This document shows, one piece after another, positions 6,309 through 13,490 of a stretch of 64,000 nucleotides of DNA (its first letter is position 1; the number at the start of each line of letters is the position of its first letter). This stretch comes from Halorhabdus rudnickae. GTDB taxonomy: Archaea; Halobacteriota; Halobacteria; Halobacteriales; Haloarculaceae. Made by a program: the position numbers and the translations under genes. The stretch covers positions 558,001 to 622,000 of the forward strand of contig NZ_CAAHFB010000001.1 in assembly GCF_900880625.1 (NCBI RefSeq). The letters run 5' to 3'. The notes beneath the pieces are model-generated. The model ran no database searches. It worked only from the letters and a program-made list of their open reading frames with translations, and was not told the origin of the DNA.

Positions 6309-6354
6309 ACGCCGACGCCATCCCAACGAACGCAAATGTCCAACACATCCGAGG

Positions 6355-7560
6355 TTGCGTCGGGATCCCCGGCGGATCGAGTTCTTCCAGGGCACACTCG
6401 ATAGTACGTCCGAAATCACGGACGCACGGATTTTCGATACGACGCTTCGCGACGGGGAACAGACGCCGCGCACCTCGTTTTCTTACGAAGATAAACGAGA
6501 AATAGCGGCGCTACTCGACGAAATGGGCACCCACGTCATCGAGGCTGGGTTCCCCGTCAACTCCGACGCGGAGTTCGAGGCGGTGCGTGACATCGCCGAA
6601 AGTACCACGACGACCACCTGCGGGCTCGCCCGCGTCGTCGAGGAGGACGTCAAAGCGGCCATCGACTCGGGCGTCGAATTGGTCCACGTGTTCGTCTCGA
6701 CCAGCGACGTCCAACTCGAGGACTCGATGCACGCGACCCGCGAGGACGCCGTCGAGCGGGCCGTCGAGTCAGTCGAGCGCGTCAAGGAGGCTGGTGTCGA
6801 GTGCATGTTCTCGCCAATGGACGCGACCCGTACTGACGAGGACTTTCTGCTCGATGTAGTCGAGGCCGTCACCGAGGCGGGCACCGACTGGATCAACATC
6901 CCCGACACGACCGGCGTCGCGACGCCCGGTCGCTTCACGGAGATAGTTGGCAAAGTCGTCGCCCACACGGACGCCCGCGTCGACGTCCACACCCACGACG
7001 ACTTCGGGCTGGCAACGGCCAACGCTCTCGCAGGCTACGAGGCCGGCGGCGCACAGGCCCAGGTCAGCGTCAATGGCATCGGCGAACGCGCTGGCAACGC
7101 GGCCTACGAAGAAGTAGTCATGGCCGTAGAAAGCCTGTACGACGTGGATACGGGCATCGACACGACTCAGATCACCGAACTGTCCCGACTGATCGAGGAA
7201 AAAAGTGGCGTCGACACGCCGGGCAACAAACCCGTCGTCGGCGAGAACGCCTTCTCCCACGAGTCGGGCATCCACGCCGCGGGCGTCATCGAAAACAGCG
7301 ATACGTTCGAACCTGGCGTGATGACTCCCGAGATGGTCGGTGCCGAGCGCGAACTCGTCTTGGGCAAGCACACCGGTCAGCACTCGGTCCGGGAACGACT
7401 GGTCGAGGCCGGGTTCTCGCCGTCGGACAGTGACGTACGAGAAGTAACCCGCCGCGTCAAGGAGTTCGGTGCCGAGGACAACCGCGTCACGATGGACGTC
7501 CTCGAACGGTTCGCACGCGACGTGGGCGTCGAGCAGACACGTGAGGAGGTCAGTGCCTGA
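6355..7560 (+). CDS. leuA: 2-isopropylmalate / (R)-citramalate synthase family
   Basis: A 401-residue DRE-TIM metallolyase. It has the catalytic FDTTLRDGEQTPR motif near the N-terminus, the HTHDDFG metal-binding motif and the family signature around NGIGERAGNA. It condenses acetyl-CoA with 2-oxoisovalerate (leucine branch) or pyruvate (isoleucine branch); it lacks a long C-terminal regulatory domain, so sequence alone does not decide the substrate. The start is uncertain: the conserved N-terminus (RRIEFFQGTLDST) is in frame with a TTG at 6355, while the leaderless-position ATG at 6336 is in another frame that stops at 6404. A one-base shift would join them. It stands at the head of the leu/ilv cluster. 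Confidence 0.88.
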   Translation: MRRDPRRIEFFQGTLDSTSEITDARIFDTTLRDGEQTPRTSFSYEDKREIAALLDEMGTHVIEAGFPVNSDAEFEAVRDIAESTTTTTCGLARVVEEDVKAAIDSGVELVHVFVSTSDVQLEDSMHATREDAVERAVESVERVKEAGVECMFSPMDATRTDEDFLLDVVEAVTEAGTDWINIPDTTGVATPGRFTEIVGKVVAHTDARVDVHTHDDFGLATANALAGYEAGGAQAQVSVNGIGERAGNAAYEEVVMAVESLYDVDTGIDTTQITELSRLIEEKSGVDTPGNKPVVGENAFSHESGIHAAGVIENSDTFEPGVMTPEMVGAERELVLGKHTGQHSVRERLVEAGFSPSDSDVREVTRRVKEFGAEDNRVTMDVLERFARDVGVEQTREEVSA

Positions 7561-7647
7561 CGATGGCGTCCACGTCGTTCGCGCCGATCGGCCAGCGATT
7601 GCTGTACGCCACTCCCTCCGGCGTTCGTGGATCCATCTCACGGAACG

Positions 7648-7654
7648 TTTATAA
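7648..7654 (+). promoter_or_regulatory. TATA box of the ilv leader ORF
   Basis: TTTATAA is centred 30 bases before the ATG at 7681, the spacing of a leaderless haloarchaeal transcript starting at or next to that ATG. No other sensible ORF begins there, so the promoter points at the leader ORF. Confidence 0.7.
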
Positions 7655-7680
7655 CGAACGACTACGATCATCCAGTACCG

Positions 7681-7767
7681 ATGCGCCTGCTGGTCACGTC
7701 CGGGGTTCGATCCGGCGCTACCAGTGGGTCCGCCCTGCTTCTCGTCGGTATTGTAGGGGCTCTATAG
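7681..7767 (+). CDS. Leu/Val/Ile-rich leader peptide before ilvB (putative attenuator)
   Basis: A 28-codon ORF with an ATG placed exactly where a leaderless start is expected from the TATA box at 7648-7654. The peptide begins MRLLVTSGV and ends ALLLVGIVGAL. Leu, Val and Ile make up 11 of 28 residues, with seven of them in the last ten codons, and those three amino acids are the products of the downstream pathway. The TAG stop lies in the loop and 3' arm of a hairpin (7756-7771). ilvB starts 148 bases further on. By analogy with bacterial ilv and leu leader peptides I infer control by ribosome stalling. The function is untested, and the ORF has no similarity to a structural protein that I recognise. 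Confidence 0.65.
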   Translation: MRLLVTSGVRSGATSGSALLLVGIVGAL

Positions 7768-7771
7768 CCCC
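7756..7771 (+). promoter_or_regulatory. hairpin overlapping the end of the leader ORF
   Basis: GGGGCT pairs with AGCCCC around a CTAT loop. The leader stop codon begins in the loop, so a ribosome finishing the peptide would melt this stem, while one stalled on the Leu/Val/Ile codons just upstream would alter it. A further CCCC at 7779-7782 offers alternative pairing with the same GGGG. Confidence 0.5.
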
Positions 7772-7840
7772 AACAGTACCCCATTCTCCACGACGATCGG
7801 ACGGCGCTTCGACCACCAGCGAGCAGACCAAATCCATGAC

Positions 7841-7847
7841 ATATAAG
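7841..7847 (+). promoter_or_regulatory. possible second TATA box before ilvB
   Basis: ATATAAG lies 70 bases before the ilvB ATG and would start transcription near 7870, inside the GC hairpin at 7864-7888. It could give an ilvB transcript that bypasses the leader ORF. Only position and composition support it. Confidence 0.4.
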
Positions 7848-7863
7848 AGACAATACACGTCGG

Positions 7864-7888
7864 GGCCGCGGGCAGGTCGTCCGCGGCC
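7864..7888 (+). promoter_or_regulatory. strong GC hairpin before the ilvB ribosome-binding site
   Basis: GGCCGCGG (7864-7871) pairs perfectly with CCGCGGCC (7881-7888) around a nine-base loop. It ends 14 bases before the GGAGGT ribosome-binding site at 7903-7908. No T-run follows, so it is not a canonical intrinsic terminator; it could pause polymerase or hinder ribosome access. It is the natural second element of an attenuator with the leader ORF. Confidence 0.55.
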
Positions 7889-7915
7889 GGCACCCACCGC
7901 ACGGAGGTATCGACC

Positions 7916-9691
7916 ATGAGTGAACGCGCGTTCCATCAAGATCGCGAGCCGGAACCGCCGGCCGAAGAGGATGAGGAAGCGAGCGACGACACTCGTGAAG
8001 TGACGACGGGGGCGGAAGCCGCGATAATCGCCTTAGAGGAGGCAGGGGTCGACATGGCCTTCGGCGTCCAGGGCGGGGCGATCATGCCCGTCTACGATGC
8101 GCTCTATGACTCGGACATCGAGCATATCACGATGGCCCACGAGCAGGGGGCAGCCCACGCCGCCGACGCCTACGGGATCGTCTCGGGCGATCCCGGCGTC
8201 GCAATGGCGACTTCGGGACCAGGAGCGACCAATCTCGTGACGGGCATCGCCGACGCCTCGATGGACTCGGATCCGATGATCGCGCTGACCGGCCAGGTCG
8301 CGACGGACTTCGTCGGTAACGACGCCTTCCAGGAGGTCGACACTGTTGGCATTACCCAGCCGATCACCAAACAGAACTACTTCGCCGGCGATCCGGACAC
8401 CCTCGGTGCGGACGTCAGCGAGGCCTTCGCACTGGCCGATGCCGGCCGACAGGGCCCGACGCTGGTCGACCTCCCGAAGGACGCCAGCAAGGCCGAGACC
8501 GACGTCCAGCCGGTCTCCCCGGAGACGCCGAACACCTATCATCCACCGGAGACCGCCGACGAGGCAGTCATCGAGGCTGCGGCGGAGACCTTAGCGGAGG
8601 CCGATCGGCCGGTCATCCTCTCGGGTGGCGGCGTCATCAAGGGCGAGGCACACGACGAACTGCGTGCGTTCGCTCGCGAGTACGATATCCCCGTGATCAC
8701 GACCATGCCCGGCCTGGGGAGCTTCCCCGAGACCGACGACCTCTCGCTGGGCATGGCGGGGATGCACGGGACCGGCGCGGCCAACCTGGCGATCACGAAC
8801 TGCGACGTGTTACTGGGCGTCGGGACGCGCTTCGACGACCGCCTCACCGGCGGCGTCGATAGCTTCGCGCCGGACGCCGAAGTCATCCACGTCGAGATCG
8901 ATCCCGCCGAGATCAACAAGAACATCTATGCCGAATACCCGCTGCTGGGCGACGCCGAACGCGTCCTCGAACAGCTCGACGACGGGCTGAGGGACGCACC
9001 CGAGGCCGACGAATGGCGCGAGCAGTGCCAGACCTGGAAAGACGAGTACCCGCTGGACTACGAGACGCCCGAAGACGAACCGCTGAAACCCCAGTACGTC
9101 GTCGAGCGCTTCGCCGAGCTGGCAGACGACGATGCGATCGTCACGACCGGTGTCGGCCAACATCAGATGTGGGCCTGCCAGTTCTGGACCTACACCGAGC
9201 CACGGACCTGGGTCTCTTCGAATGGCCTGGGGACGATGGGCTACGGCGTCCCGTCGGCGATCGGTGCCAAACTGGGCGCGCCGGACAAGGAGGTCGTTAC
9301 CTTCGACGGCGACGGCTCGTTCCTGATGACGATGCAGGAACTGTCCGTGGCGGTCCGCGAGGATCTGGACATCACGTACGTCATCCTCAACAACGAGGCC
9401 ATCGGGATGGTCCGCCAGTGGCAGGACGGGTTCTACGAGGGACGACGGATGGCAAGCGAGTATCCGTGGATCCCCGAGTTCGACCTGCTGGCGGAATCGT
9501 TCGGTGCGCGCGGGTTCCGACTGGAAGAGCACGACCAGGTCGACGACGTGATTCAGCAGGCTCGCGAGTACGACGGCCCCGCAGTCATCGACGCGATCAT
9601 CGACCCCGGTGAGAACGTCTATCCGATGGTTCCCAGCGGCGGAGACAACGGCCTGTTCGCACTCTCGGAAGAACAACTAAACAACCTCTAA
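7916..9691 (+). CDS. ilvB: acetolactate synthase, large subunit
   Basis: A 591-residue ThDP enzyme that makes 2-acetolactate or 2-aceto-2-hydroxybutyrate, the committed step to valine, leucine and isoleucine. It has the catalytic glutamate in AHEQGAAHAADAYG, a central FAD/ADP-binding region (VGTRFDDRLTG), and the ThDP-Mg motif beginning GDGSFLMTMQE and ending VILNN. A 35-residue acidic N-terminal extension precedes the fold. The start is supported by GGAGGT seven bases upstream. The ilvN gene follows after two bases. A peptide ORF and two hairpins precede it and suggest attenuation. Confidence 0.95.
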   Translation: MSERAFHQDREPEPPAEEDEEASDDTREVTTGAEAAIIALEEAGVDMAFGVQGGAIMPVYDALYDSDIEHITMAHEQGAAHAADAYGIVSGDPGVAMATSGPGATNLVTGIADASMDSDPMIALTGQVATDFVGNDAFQEVDTVGITQPITKQNYFAGDPDTLGADVSEAFALADAGRQGPTLVDLPKDASKAETDVQPVSPETPNTYHPPETADEAVIEAAAETLAEADRPVILSGGGVIKGEAHDELRAFAREYDIPVITTMPGLGSFPETDDLSLGMAGMHGTGAANLAITNCDVLLGVGTRFDDRLTGGVDSFAPDAEVIHVEIDPAEINKNIYAEYPLLGDAERVLEQLDDGLRDAPEADEWREQCQTWKDEYPLDYETPEDEPLKPQYVVERFAELADDDAIVTTGVGQHQMWACQFWTYTEPRTWVSSNGLGTMGYGVPSAIGAKLGAPDKEVVTFDGDGSFLMTMQELSVAVREDLDITYVILNNEAIGMVRQWQDGFYEGRRMASEYPWIPEFDLLAESFGARGFRLEEHDQVDDVIQQAREYDGPAVIDAIIDPGENVYPMVPSGGDNGLFALSEEQLNNL

Positions 9692-9693
9692 CG

Positions 9694-10311
9694 ATGAGCA
9701 GTGGAGAACTCCCAGGGCCGGCCCCCGGCGATCGGATGCGACCCGAGGGACGGCGCAACATGCAAGGTATTCGTATCGACCCGGAAGCAGAAGCGACCCA
9801 CCAGCCCCGCTATGCGGTGCTCTCGGCGCTGGTCAAACACGAGCCCGGCGTCCTCGCCGAAGTGTCGGGGCTGTTCAGCCGCCGGCAGTTCAACATCGAG
9901 AGCCTCACTGTCGGGCCGACGACCGAGGAGAACGTCGCCCGGATGACGATCGTCATCGAGGAGGCCGAGCCGGGCATCGAGCAGGCCAAAAAGCAACTCG
10001 AGAAGCTCGTTCCAACCATCGCCGTCGAGGAGCTACAACCCGAGGCGATGCGGCGGGAACTCGCCCTCGTGAAAGTGCGGGGCGAGAAGCCCGACGACAT
10101 CCAGTCGGTCGCGGAGATGTACGGCGGCCAAGCCGTCGACGCCTCGACGAACGCCGTGACCGTCGAGATCACGGGCAGCAAGCAGAAGATCGACGCCGCC
10201 GTTGAGGCATTCAAGCAGTTCGACGTCGAGGAGGTCGTCCGGACCGGCGCGGCGGCTCTCGAACGCGGCGCGGAGACGATGGACGCAAACGGGTACGCGA
10301 GTAAGAAGTAG
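9694..10311 (+). CDS. ilvN: acetolactate synthase, small (regulatory) subunit
   Basis: A 205-residue protein with an N-terminal ACT domain (YAVLSALVKHEPGVLAEVSGL, then FNIESLTVGPT) and the C-terminal small-subunit domain. The ACT dimer binds valine or leucine for feedback inhibition and activates IlvB. The first 30 or so residues form a polar extension; an internal ATG at 9760 (MQGIRIDP) is a possible alternative start. It begins two bases after ilvB, so the subunits are co-translated, and ilvC follows after about 70 bases. Confidence 0.93.
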   Translation: MSSGELPGPAPGDRMRPEGRRNMQGIRIDPEAEATHQPRYAVLSALVKHEPGVLAEVSGLFSRRQFNIESLTVGPTTEENVARMTIVIEEAEPGIEQAKKQLEKLVPTIAVEELQPEAMRRELALVKVRGEKPDDIQSVAEMYGGQAVDASTNAVTVEITGSKQKIDAAVEAFKQFDVEEVVRTGAAALERGAETMDANGYASKK

Positions 10312-10383
10312 CCAGATAATCGAACACGGCGACACGATAGATTGAACACTGACCCAATCGGAATCGAAAACGACACACTACCG

Positions 10384-11394
<1,011 letters not shown>

Positions 11395-11451
11395 ACGACC
11401 CGAGACAATGAAACCACGTTATCGAGCGCAGACGACAGACAGAGTGCGAGT

Positions 11452-12873
11452 ATGAGCCAGGGAACGCTGTACGACAAGGTGTGGGATCGCCACAAGGTAA
11501 CGACGCTGCCCAATGGGCAGGATCAGCTGTTCGTGGGGCTACACCTCATCCACGAGGTCACCAGCCCGCAGGCCTTCGGCATGCTTCGGGAACGGGACAT
11601 CGAGGTCGCCCGGCCGGACCTGACTCACGCGACCGTCGATCACATCGTCCCGACGGCCGATCAGTCTCGGCCCTACAGCGACGACGCGGCCGAGGAGATG
11701 ATGTCCGAACTCGAAGAGAACGTCCACGATGCGGGCATCGAATTTTCCGACCCGACAACGGGCGATCAGGGCATCGTCCACGTCATCGGCCCGGAGCAGG
11801 GCATCACCCAGCCCGGCAAGACGATCGTCTGTGGCGACAGCCACACATCGACGCACGGGGCCTTTGGCGCGCTGGCGTTTGGCATCGGAACCTCTCAGAT
11901 CCGGGACGTCCTGGCCACCCAGTGTATCGCCATGGAGAAACAGAAGGTCCGGAAGATCCAGGTCGATGGCGAACTGGGACCGGGTGTCGAAGCCAAAGAT
12001 ATCATCCTGGAAATTATCCGGCGATTGGGCACCGACGGCGGCGTCGGCTACGTCTATGAGTACGCTGGCGAGGCCATCGAGAACCTGGACATGGAAGGCC
12101 GAATGAGCATCTGTAACATGTCCATCGAGGGTGGCGCTCGCGCGGGCTACGTCAACCCCGACGAGACCACCTACGAGTGGATGGAAGACACCGACTACTT
12201 CCAGGAGAACCCCGAGGCCTTCGACGAGCTGAAACCGTACTGGGAATCCATCCGTAGCGACGAGGACGCCCAGTACGACGACGTGGTTCACATCGACGCG
12301 AACGAACTGGAGCCGGTCGTCACGTGGGGCACGACTCCGGGCCAGGGCATCGGTATCTCCGATCCGATCCCCGCACCCGAGGATCTGCCCGAGGACAAAC
12401 AGGAGACGGCCCGGCGTGCCCAGGAGCACATGCGGGTCGAACCCGGCGAGACCATGGCGGGCTACGACATCGACGTGGTCTTCCTGGGTTCGTGTACGAA
12501 TGCACGCCTGCCCGACTTGCGCCGTGCGGCCAACATCGTCGAGGGCCGAGAGGTCGACGACAGCGTCCGGGCGATGGTCGTCCCTGGTAGCCAGCGCGTC
12601 CAGCAGGCCGCCGAGGAGGAGGGCCTGGCGGACATCTTCCGCGAAGCCGGTTTCGAGTGGCGCAACGCCGGCTGTTCGATGTGTCTGGGGATGAACGAAG
12701 ACCAACTGGAGGGTGATGAGGCCTCGGCCTCGTCGTCGAATCGGAACTTCGTCGGTCGCCAGGGCAGCAAAGACGGCCGGACCGTCCTGATGAACCCCCA
12801 GATGGTCGCCGCGGCGGCGATCACCGGGGAAGTAACTGACGTGCGCGAACTGTCGGAGGTGACTCCCGCATGA
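11452..12873 (+). CDS. leuC: 3-isopropylmalate dehydratase, large subunit
   Basis: A 473-residue aconitase-family subunit. It binds the 4Fe-4S cluster through cysteines in the [13 protein letters not shown] and [10 protein letters not shown] segments, plus one in the [14 protein letters not shown] region. With LeuD it interconverts 2- and 3-isopropylmalate in leucine synthesis and may act on citramalate for isoleucine. It overlaps leuD by four bases (ATGA), so the two subunits are translationally coupled. The length is normal for the bacterial-type large subunit. Confidence 0.95.
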
Positions 12874-13490
12874 GCGACTTCGACGCCGACATCCCTGAAG
12901 TGCGCGAAGTGACCGGGACAGGCGTGCCCATCCGCGGGAACGACATCGACACCGACCAGATCATCCCCGCGCGGTTCATGAAGGTCGTCACCTTCGACGG
13001 CCTGGGCCAGTTCGCCTTTTTCGATGTCCGCTACGACGACGATGACAACCAGAAAGACCACCCGATGAACGAGGACCAGTTCCGGGGCGCCAACGTGATG
13101 GTCGTCAACGACAACTTCGGGTGTGGGTCCTCCCGGGAACACGCGCCCCAGGCCCTGATGCGTTGGGGAATCGACGCGTTCATCGGCGAGTCCTTCGCGG
13201 AAATCTTCGCTGGCAACTGTCTCGCGCTGGGGATGCCGACCGTGACGGCCGATCACGAGACGATCGCCGACCTGCAGGACTGGATCGAGGCGAATCCCGA
13301 CGGTGAGATCGACATCGACGTCGAGGCCGAAACTGTCACCTACGGCGAACAGATGGTAGAGGTCACTGTCGACAATGCTCAACGCCAGGCTCTGGTCGAT
13401 GGGATTTGGGATACGACAGCGTTGATGAGTGCAAACGAAACCGAGATCGATCGAACGGCCGAATCGTTGCCGTACGTCAAAGAGGCCTGA
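12870..13490 (+). CDS. leuD: 3-isopropylmalate dehydratase, small subunit
   Basis: A 206-residue swivel-domain subunit. It has the [16 protein letters not shown] segment and the signature [15 protein letters not shown] that contacts substrate. It partners LeuC, whose stop it overlaps by four bases. In many haloarchaea leuB follows directly. Here the next genes are on the opposite strand and unrelated, so the operon ends at leuD. Confidence 0.95.

Follow-up and report, generated by a model that had tools for sequence, protein, structure and literature searches.

A candidate Ile/Val-sensing, ribosome-mediated leader switch upstream of the ilvBNC-leuCD cluster in Halorhabdus and other haloarchaea

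A short open reading frame (ORF) separates a promoter from the branched-chain amino acid biosynthesis cluster of Halorhabdus rudnickae, raising the question of whether an archaeon could control such genes in the manner of the bacterial branched-chain attenuators that operate under ribosome control, such as ilvL, ivbL, and leuL of Escherichia coli. Within the window (the whole 64,000-nucleotide stretch of DNA analyzed here, in which the leader and the neighboring ilv and leu genes lie on the forward strand), the gene order is a leuA/cimA-type gene, the leader, and then the ilvB-ilvN-ilvC-leuC-leuD cluster. The acetolactate synthase large subunit gene ilvB (7916–9691) matches TIGR00118 with 700 bits, over the cut-off, and has a relative in Halorhabdus salina with 94% identity; the remaining genes of the cluster, ilvN, ilvC, leuC, and leuD (9694–13490), have NCBIfam matches over the cut-off. 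The leuA/cimA-type gene (6355–7560), located 5′ of the leader promoter, is assigned at the family level only because its scores against NF002085 and TIGR02090 (458 and 422 bits) are below the cut-off. The interpretation favored here, with a probability of roughly 0.8, is that the leader of ilvBNC-leuCD would function as a translation-dependent, cis-acting, ribosome-mediated switch that senses Ile and Val.

The leader begins with a promoter composed of a BRE-like GGAACG and the TATA box TTTATAA (7642–7654, with the TATA box itself at 7648–7654), followed by ORF1, a leaderless 28-codon ORF (7681–7767, ATG at 7681) for the peptide MRLLVTSGVRSGATSGSALLLVGIVGAL. Near its end, the codons ATT (Ile) and GTA (Val), both rare in the haloarchaeal genomes examined, occupy positions 7750–7755 and are followed by an RNA hairpin (7756–7771) with arms GGGGC (7756–7760) and GCCCC (7767–7771) and with the stop codon in its loop. 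A pyrimidine-rich stretch, weak in the window and clearer in relatives, lies 3′ of the hairpin (7772–7795). Missed by the initial annotation was ORF2 (7836–7919), which encodes MTYKRQYTSGPRAGRPRPAPTARRYRP, a peptide free of Leu, Ile, and Val, and whose stop overlaps the ilvB start as ATGA; the ilvB Shine-Dalgarno sequence (SD) GGAGG (7903–7907) is located within it. In the window, ORF2 also forms the 3′ part of a longer open frame of 118 codons (7563–7919), which could be mis-annotated as a gene.

The distribution of the leader was assessed with a core motif, ATYGTAGGGG-N3..9-CCCC, representing the Ile-Val codons, the GGGGC stem, the in-loop stop codon, and GCCCC. It is present in 374 of 391 Halobacteria genomes, usually in one copy each and about 85–450 nt 5′ of the ilvB match, and the reversed-pattern control is near zero in the same genome set; beyond Halobacteria, in the same phylum, matches are sporadic, at background level, and mostly devoid of an in-loop stop codon. 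When the regions upstream of ilvB at 147 loci from eleven families were oriented and compared, 140 contained the leader (130 with the exact motif and 10 variants). Loci lacking it are few, and in some of these (L204–L207) ilvB follows the upstream gene almost without a gap. In the genus, the leader as a whole is 74–84% conserved between the window and six further genomes, with ORF1, TATA box, ATG, and stem intact in 7/7, and the hairpin can be extended to an imperfect inverted repeat (7747–7780) that none of 100 shuffles of the window reproduced. Judged by the shuffles, the seven genus genomes, and the 374 genomes of the class, the combination of leader ORF and hairpin is far beyond chance. 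Both the leaderless ORF behind the TATA box and the placement of its stop codon within a hairpin, as proposed in the initial annotation, are thus upheld.

A fixed promoter geometry accompanies this conservation. Relative to the leader ATG, an A-rich BRE position at −37/−36 and TTAT at −32 to −29 were found across 128 loci, with the distance from TATA/BRE to ATG unchanged; use of a TATA-like match in choosing the ATG sharpened the TATA signal but not the BRE signal. The ATG of ORF1 is placed at the expected start point of a leaderless transcript. An alignment of haloarchaeal ilvB upstream regions had been advised in the initial annotation, and in it the ORF, the Ile/Val codons, the promoter spacing, and the stem are conserved class-wide, with compensatory changes; the second hairpin and the bypass promoter suggested at the same time fail this comparison. 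The window does contain the all-GC hairpin at 7864–7888, but even among the genus genomes the stem of this hairpin is not conserved, and it was rejected as a terminator on that ground. The TATA-like box at 7841, taken for the bypass promoter, is CACACA-like in the other six genus genomes.

Which amino acids the leader might sense is indicated by its end. Peptides encoded by ORF1 are mostly 22–33 residues long and have a stable terminus, Ile-Val-Gly-(Ala/Val) followed by the stop, with the terminal Ile-Val present in 128/128 leaders; the combined share of Leu, Ile, and Val rises from 7% at position −9 to >50% at −5, −4, and −2. Leaders use GTA for Val in 130/130 cases, whereas in 61 ilvB genes this codon makes up 0.3% of the 2905 Val codons; although the search pattern itself required GTA, 96% of genomes met that pattern. 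GTA is also retained in 10/10 variant leaders, which were found by reading the sequences and in which the Ile position is replaced by Val, Leu, or Phe. The Ile codon is ATT in 73% of leaders versus 7.9% in ilvB. Since Leu is not conserved in ORF1, the amino acids sensed are most likely Val and Ile, which the pathway started by IlvBNC yields directly. The initial annotation had regarded the Leu/Val/Ile richness of the peptide as the sensor; of this, the terminal Ile-Val is conserved and Leu is not, which rules out Leu sensing and a general Leu/Val/Ile sensor. In a different genus, the second copies of ilvB (L096, L098) have their own leader, ending in FVGAA and a stop, in which Phe replaces Ile while the GTA codon and a GGGGCC/GGCCCC stem are unchanged.

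The stem next to these codons shows compensatory changes. It is retained in 140 loci according to a stem finder that misplaced a few of them (e.g., L183/L184), and this count is superseded by a covariation count over 46 distinct arm sequences. In the latter, 99.1% of cells are paired, a percentage biased towards structure by placing the arms to maximize pairing, and both sides have changed at three of the five pairs; none of 500 shuffles reached any of the measures, and slid controls were 48–75% paired. By eye, the fifth pair switches among C-G, U-A, and G-C, and single C-G swaps occur at pairs 1 and 4. Variant leaders carry IVRAR with CGGGCC/GGCCCG or IVGPA with GGGCC/GGCCC; because the amino acids change with the stem, the stem is the constrained unit there. 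In the first 20 nt 3′ of the stem, pyrimidines make up 69–76% (about 130 loci), and TTTT occurs within 40 nt of the stem in 40 of 129 loci versus 13.8 expected. No mutually exclusive antiterminator was detected: the ORF1 body is depleted in CCCC, and there is no enrichment of GGGG further downstream. Pairing of an anti-hairpin in ORF1 or downstream was rejected since complementary segments are not enriched, as was a duplex between the pyrimidine tract and the ilvB SD, which is less stable than shuffles. An intrinsic terminator (GC stem plus U-tract) was not found within the window.

Anatomy, conservation, codon choice, stem covariation, and the avoidance of branched-chain residues by ORF2 form the observed basis from which we infer stalling, the direction of control, and the mode of stall read-out. 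The leaderless transcript would begin at the ORF1 ATG and be loaded immediately by a ribosome, which would arrive at a terminal Ile-Val encoded by the rare ATT GTA and abutting the GC hairpin with its stop codon. By its geometry, this hairpin would fold depending on ribosome position; as a point against the model, a ribosome at the stop codon covers the stem too, so that the hairpin could report only after release. When both Ile and Val are abundant, the ribosome would get to the stop and depart, the hairpin would close, and the RNA beyond would be left untranslated, giving low expression. The low expression would most likely result from premature transcription termination in the naked RNA, i.e., polarity of the FttA type, the factor to which archaeal polarity has been attributed (PMC12548453); alternatively, ribosomes may fail to load at ORF2. 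If Val or Ile were short, the ribosome would stall on ATT/GTA and keep the left arm (GGGG) open, such that the downstream RNA could be used: ORF2, needing almost no branched-chain residues, would be translated, and ribosomes would reach ilvB via termination-reinitiation at ATGA.

The sensor half of this mechanism is well supported by the sequence comparisons. Transcription termination as the read-out is a tentative assignment, only slightly short of an even chance. It has odds similar to those of a purely translational control, likewise short of even, in which the same sensor would, on stalling, alter access to ORF2 or reinitiation, ilvB would be expressed by coupling only, and transcription would be unaffected. 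An ATG-started ORF2 overlapping ilvB as ATGA was found in 103 of 125 loci, compared to 5 and 2 for the other two frames. In 97 distinct ORF2 peptides, Leu, Ile, and Val account for 37 of 1953 residues (1.9%), versus 10.7% and 8.3% when the same DNA is read in the other frames; T is found at 2.9% of second codon positions, whereas its share is 9.6% at first and 10.4% at third positions. IlvB, too, has few Leu, Ile, and Val among its first 30 residues (6.2%, with Leu at 0.2%). An SD-like sequence precedes ORF2 in 7/103 loci and ilvB in 92/103, and, as a point against the model, 18% of loci have no recognizable ORF2 of at least 8 codons. We interpret the poverty of this frame in branched-chain residues, together with the ATGA overlap, as selection to keep the stretch translatable under starvation, and ORF2 is probably a translational runway, readable when branched-chain amino acids run out and delivering ribosomes to ilvB.

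Overlapping stop and start codons, as expected for termination-reinitiation, are present at the ORF2-ilvB junction, and the overlap is exactly that of the ATGA-type gene pairs for which coupling was strict in 13 of 14 cases tested in Haloferax volcanii and E. coli (PMC6728339); compared to the H. volcanii pairs, the ORF2 partner is very short and depleted in the end products of the pathway. This tight coupling, an ORF2 that lacks an SD and is nearly free of branched-chain residues, and a window without a terminator-like signal all agree with a translational read-out. On the other hand, ilvB has its own SD in most loci, the pyrimidine and TTTT enrichment 3′ of the hairpin fits termination, and no conserved structure that would hide the ORF2 start was found.

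A different sensor, in which the IVGA C-terminus itself would act inside the exit tunnel to arrest the ribosome, with amino acids as the ligand, is improbable. Arrest by a nascent peptide in the exit tunnel occurs in the TnaC and Erm leaders, and IVG followed by Ala or Val is terminal in nearly all ORF1 peptides. However, Gly and Ala track the stem sequence and change with it (IVRAR, IVGPA, IRVRA), Ile can be replaced by Val, Leu, or Phe, and elsewhere the peptide varies, also in those residues that would sit further down the tunnel; the amino acid sequence is thus not conserved independently of the RNA, and the rare GTA would be left unexplained. Less probable still is that the repeat serves, 3′ of the promoter, as a DNA operator bound by a transcription regulator, a reading for which the 14 bases per repeat arm in Halorhabdus could be cited: outside the genus only 4–6 bp are kept, at times plus GUA:UAC, the stem contains G-U pairs, and the constraints on codons and frame would not be accounted for. 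Moreover, the spacing between arms varies from 3 to 7 or more, with the stop codon tracking it, as expected of an RNA loop rather than of a fixed operator.

In close pairs, the ORF1 body differs 275, 254, and 309 times at the three codon positions, and changed codons comprise 460 non-synonymous and 180 synonymous cases. Since the peptide body drifts in this way, being hardly constrained, ORF1 looks like a cis-acting sensor rather than a functional protein. The suggestion that ORF1 merely encodes an independently functioning small protein, with the hairpin as a terminator of ORF1 or leuA, is as remote as the DNA operator, for its leaderless promoter and conserved ORF are set against a body almost without amino acid constraint, terminal codons among the rarest available, and the presence of the leader 5′ of second ilvB copies in another genus.

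Measured against bacterial systems, the ilvB leader, by its sequence features, is attenuator-like in its predicted working, but it is not a textbook attenuator. As in ilvL, ivbL, and leuL of E. coli and in ilvBNC of Corynebacterium glutamicum (PMC11857589), a short leader ORF lies 5′ of a biosynthetic operon, contains rare codons for the regulated amino acids, and has a hairpin beside the critical codons. The ORF appears translated, is located between the promoter and the first gene, and has its rare regulated codons near the end. Unlike bacterial attenuators, the haloarchaeal leader is archaeal and leaderless, only its Ile-Val is conserved, a single short hairpin contains the stop, and a second ORF poor in branched-chain residues follows and would couple to ilvB. 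The two structural hallmarks, an antiterminator hairpin and an intrinsic U-tract terminator, were not found, so that the attenuator initially proposed holds as a conserved leaderless leader, apparently branched-chain-sensing, beside a hairpin, and not in its classical structure. Actinobacterial amino acid leader elements likewise rest on comparative genomic evidence of leader ORFs with regulatory codons and conserved hairpins, but differ in having a bacterial transcription and translation apparatus and other structures (PMC1262725).

Similar leaders may precede other haloarchaeal genes. Scans that sought the expected residue, and hence provide leads with one negative control (no His leader at hisG in the sampled genomes) rather than a blind test, identified a leader ORF with a Phe-rich end, e.g., GFGFFFAA, in 14 of 23 pheS upstream regions (L261, L265, L267, L269–L273, L275, L276, and L278–L281, with L279 from the H. 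rudnickae genome itself, G000:C1) and a leader with Trp codons (WRW, RWHP, or RRWHP) in 14 of 21 trpS upstream regions (L285–L288, L290, L292 from the same genome, L293, L295–L297, and L299–L302). The pheS leaders, candidates for a Phe leader switch, have 25–29 codons, end in GFGFFFA or AFGFFEGF a few hundred nt 5′ of pheS, and show a TTTT-type TATA near −30 as well as a conserved element, GGTGGACTC...GACGAAAC, 3′ of the stop codon. At trpS, the Trp codons lie between complementary arms, CCACTTCC/GGAAGTGG in one group and CGCTCCC/GGGAGCG in another, and this difference between genera looks like covariation.

Together, the Phe and Trp leaders suggest a wider haloarchaeal system. Leader-peptide attenuation is somewhat likely to be general in haloarchaea (Ile-Val at ilvB, Phe at pheS, and Trp at trpS) and the first in archaea, with a leaderless sensor ORF, one stop-codon hairpin, and an end-product-free ORF2 that passes ribosomes on. 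To our knowledge, this combination is not known from bacteria, and we know of no ORF2-like element in actinobacterial leader elements. The literature search returned neither an ilv leader nor ribosome-mediated attenuation from archaea; this novelty is provisional, as most subscription papers were outside the scope of the search. If the proposal is true, amino acid control by the translating ribosome would extend beyond bacteria, and in haloarchaea the ribosome and RNA polymerase (or successive ribosomes) would have to stay near enough to one another for stalling to be relayed. The unannotated ORFs of 20–30 codons in haloarchaeal 5′ UTRs would also gain functional meaning, and a simple test system in the genetically tractable H. 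volcanii would give direct access to archaeal transcription-translation coupling and polarity.

In H. volcanii, ilvB1 is HVO_1508, and a transposon insertion in it leads to Val/Leu/Ile auxotrophy (PMC4300041). Table 2 of a 2016 transcription start site study of this species contains uORFs of 15–31 amino acids in long 5′ UTRs, including those of pheS and a trpS, the genes with amino-acid-matched leaders here (PMC4983044). As a point against the switch, the ilvB gene is absent from the 16 uORFs in that table, although 5′ UTRs of 150–250 nt only were screened for it, and the uORF section of the paper is silent on amino acid composition or attenuation (PMC4983044).

An Rfam covariance-model search of the window returned a tRNA at 2316–2390 only, and no known leader, T-box, or riboswitch; a tRNA-like GGGTTCGATCC in ORF1 had no match in the covariance search, and the plasmid collection contained no similar DNA. 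A second copy of the motif with an in-loop stop, seen in two genomes of one genus (G244/G403; L118 and L119, ~1501–1521), lies beside a ferritin/rubrerythrin-like gene and points away from it. Further upstream in the window, a leaderless-looking 22-codon ORF, MSNTSEVASGSPADRVLPGHTR (6336–6404), overlaps the leuA start in another frame and is conserved in 7/7 genus genomes, which points to a uORF of leuA or else to an incorrectly set leuA start.
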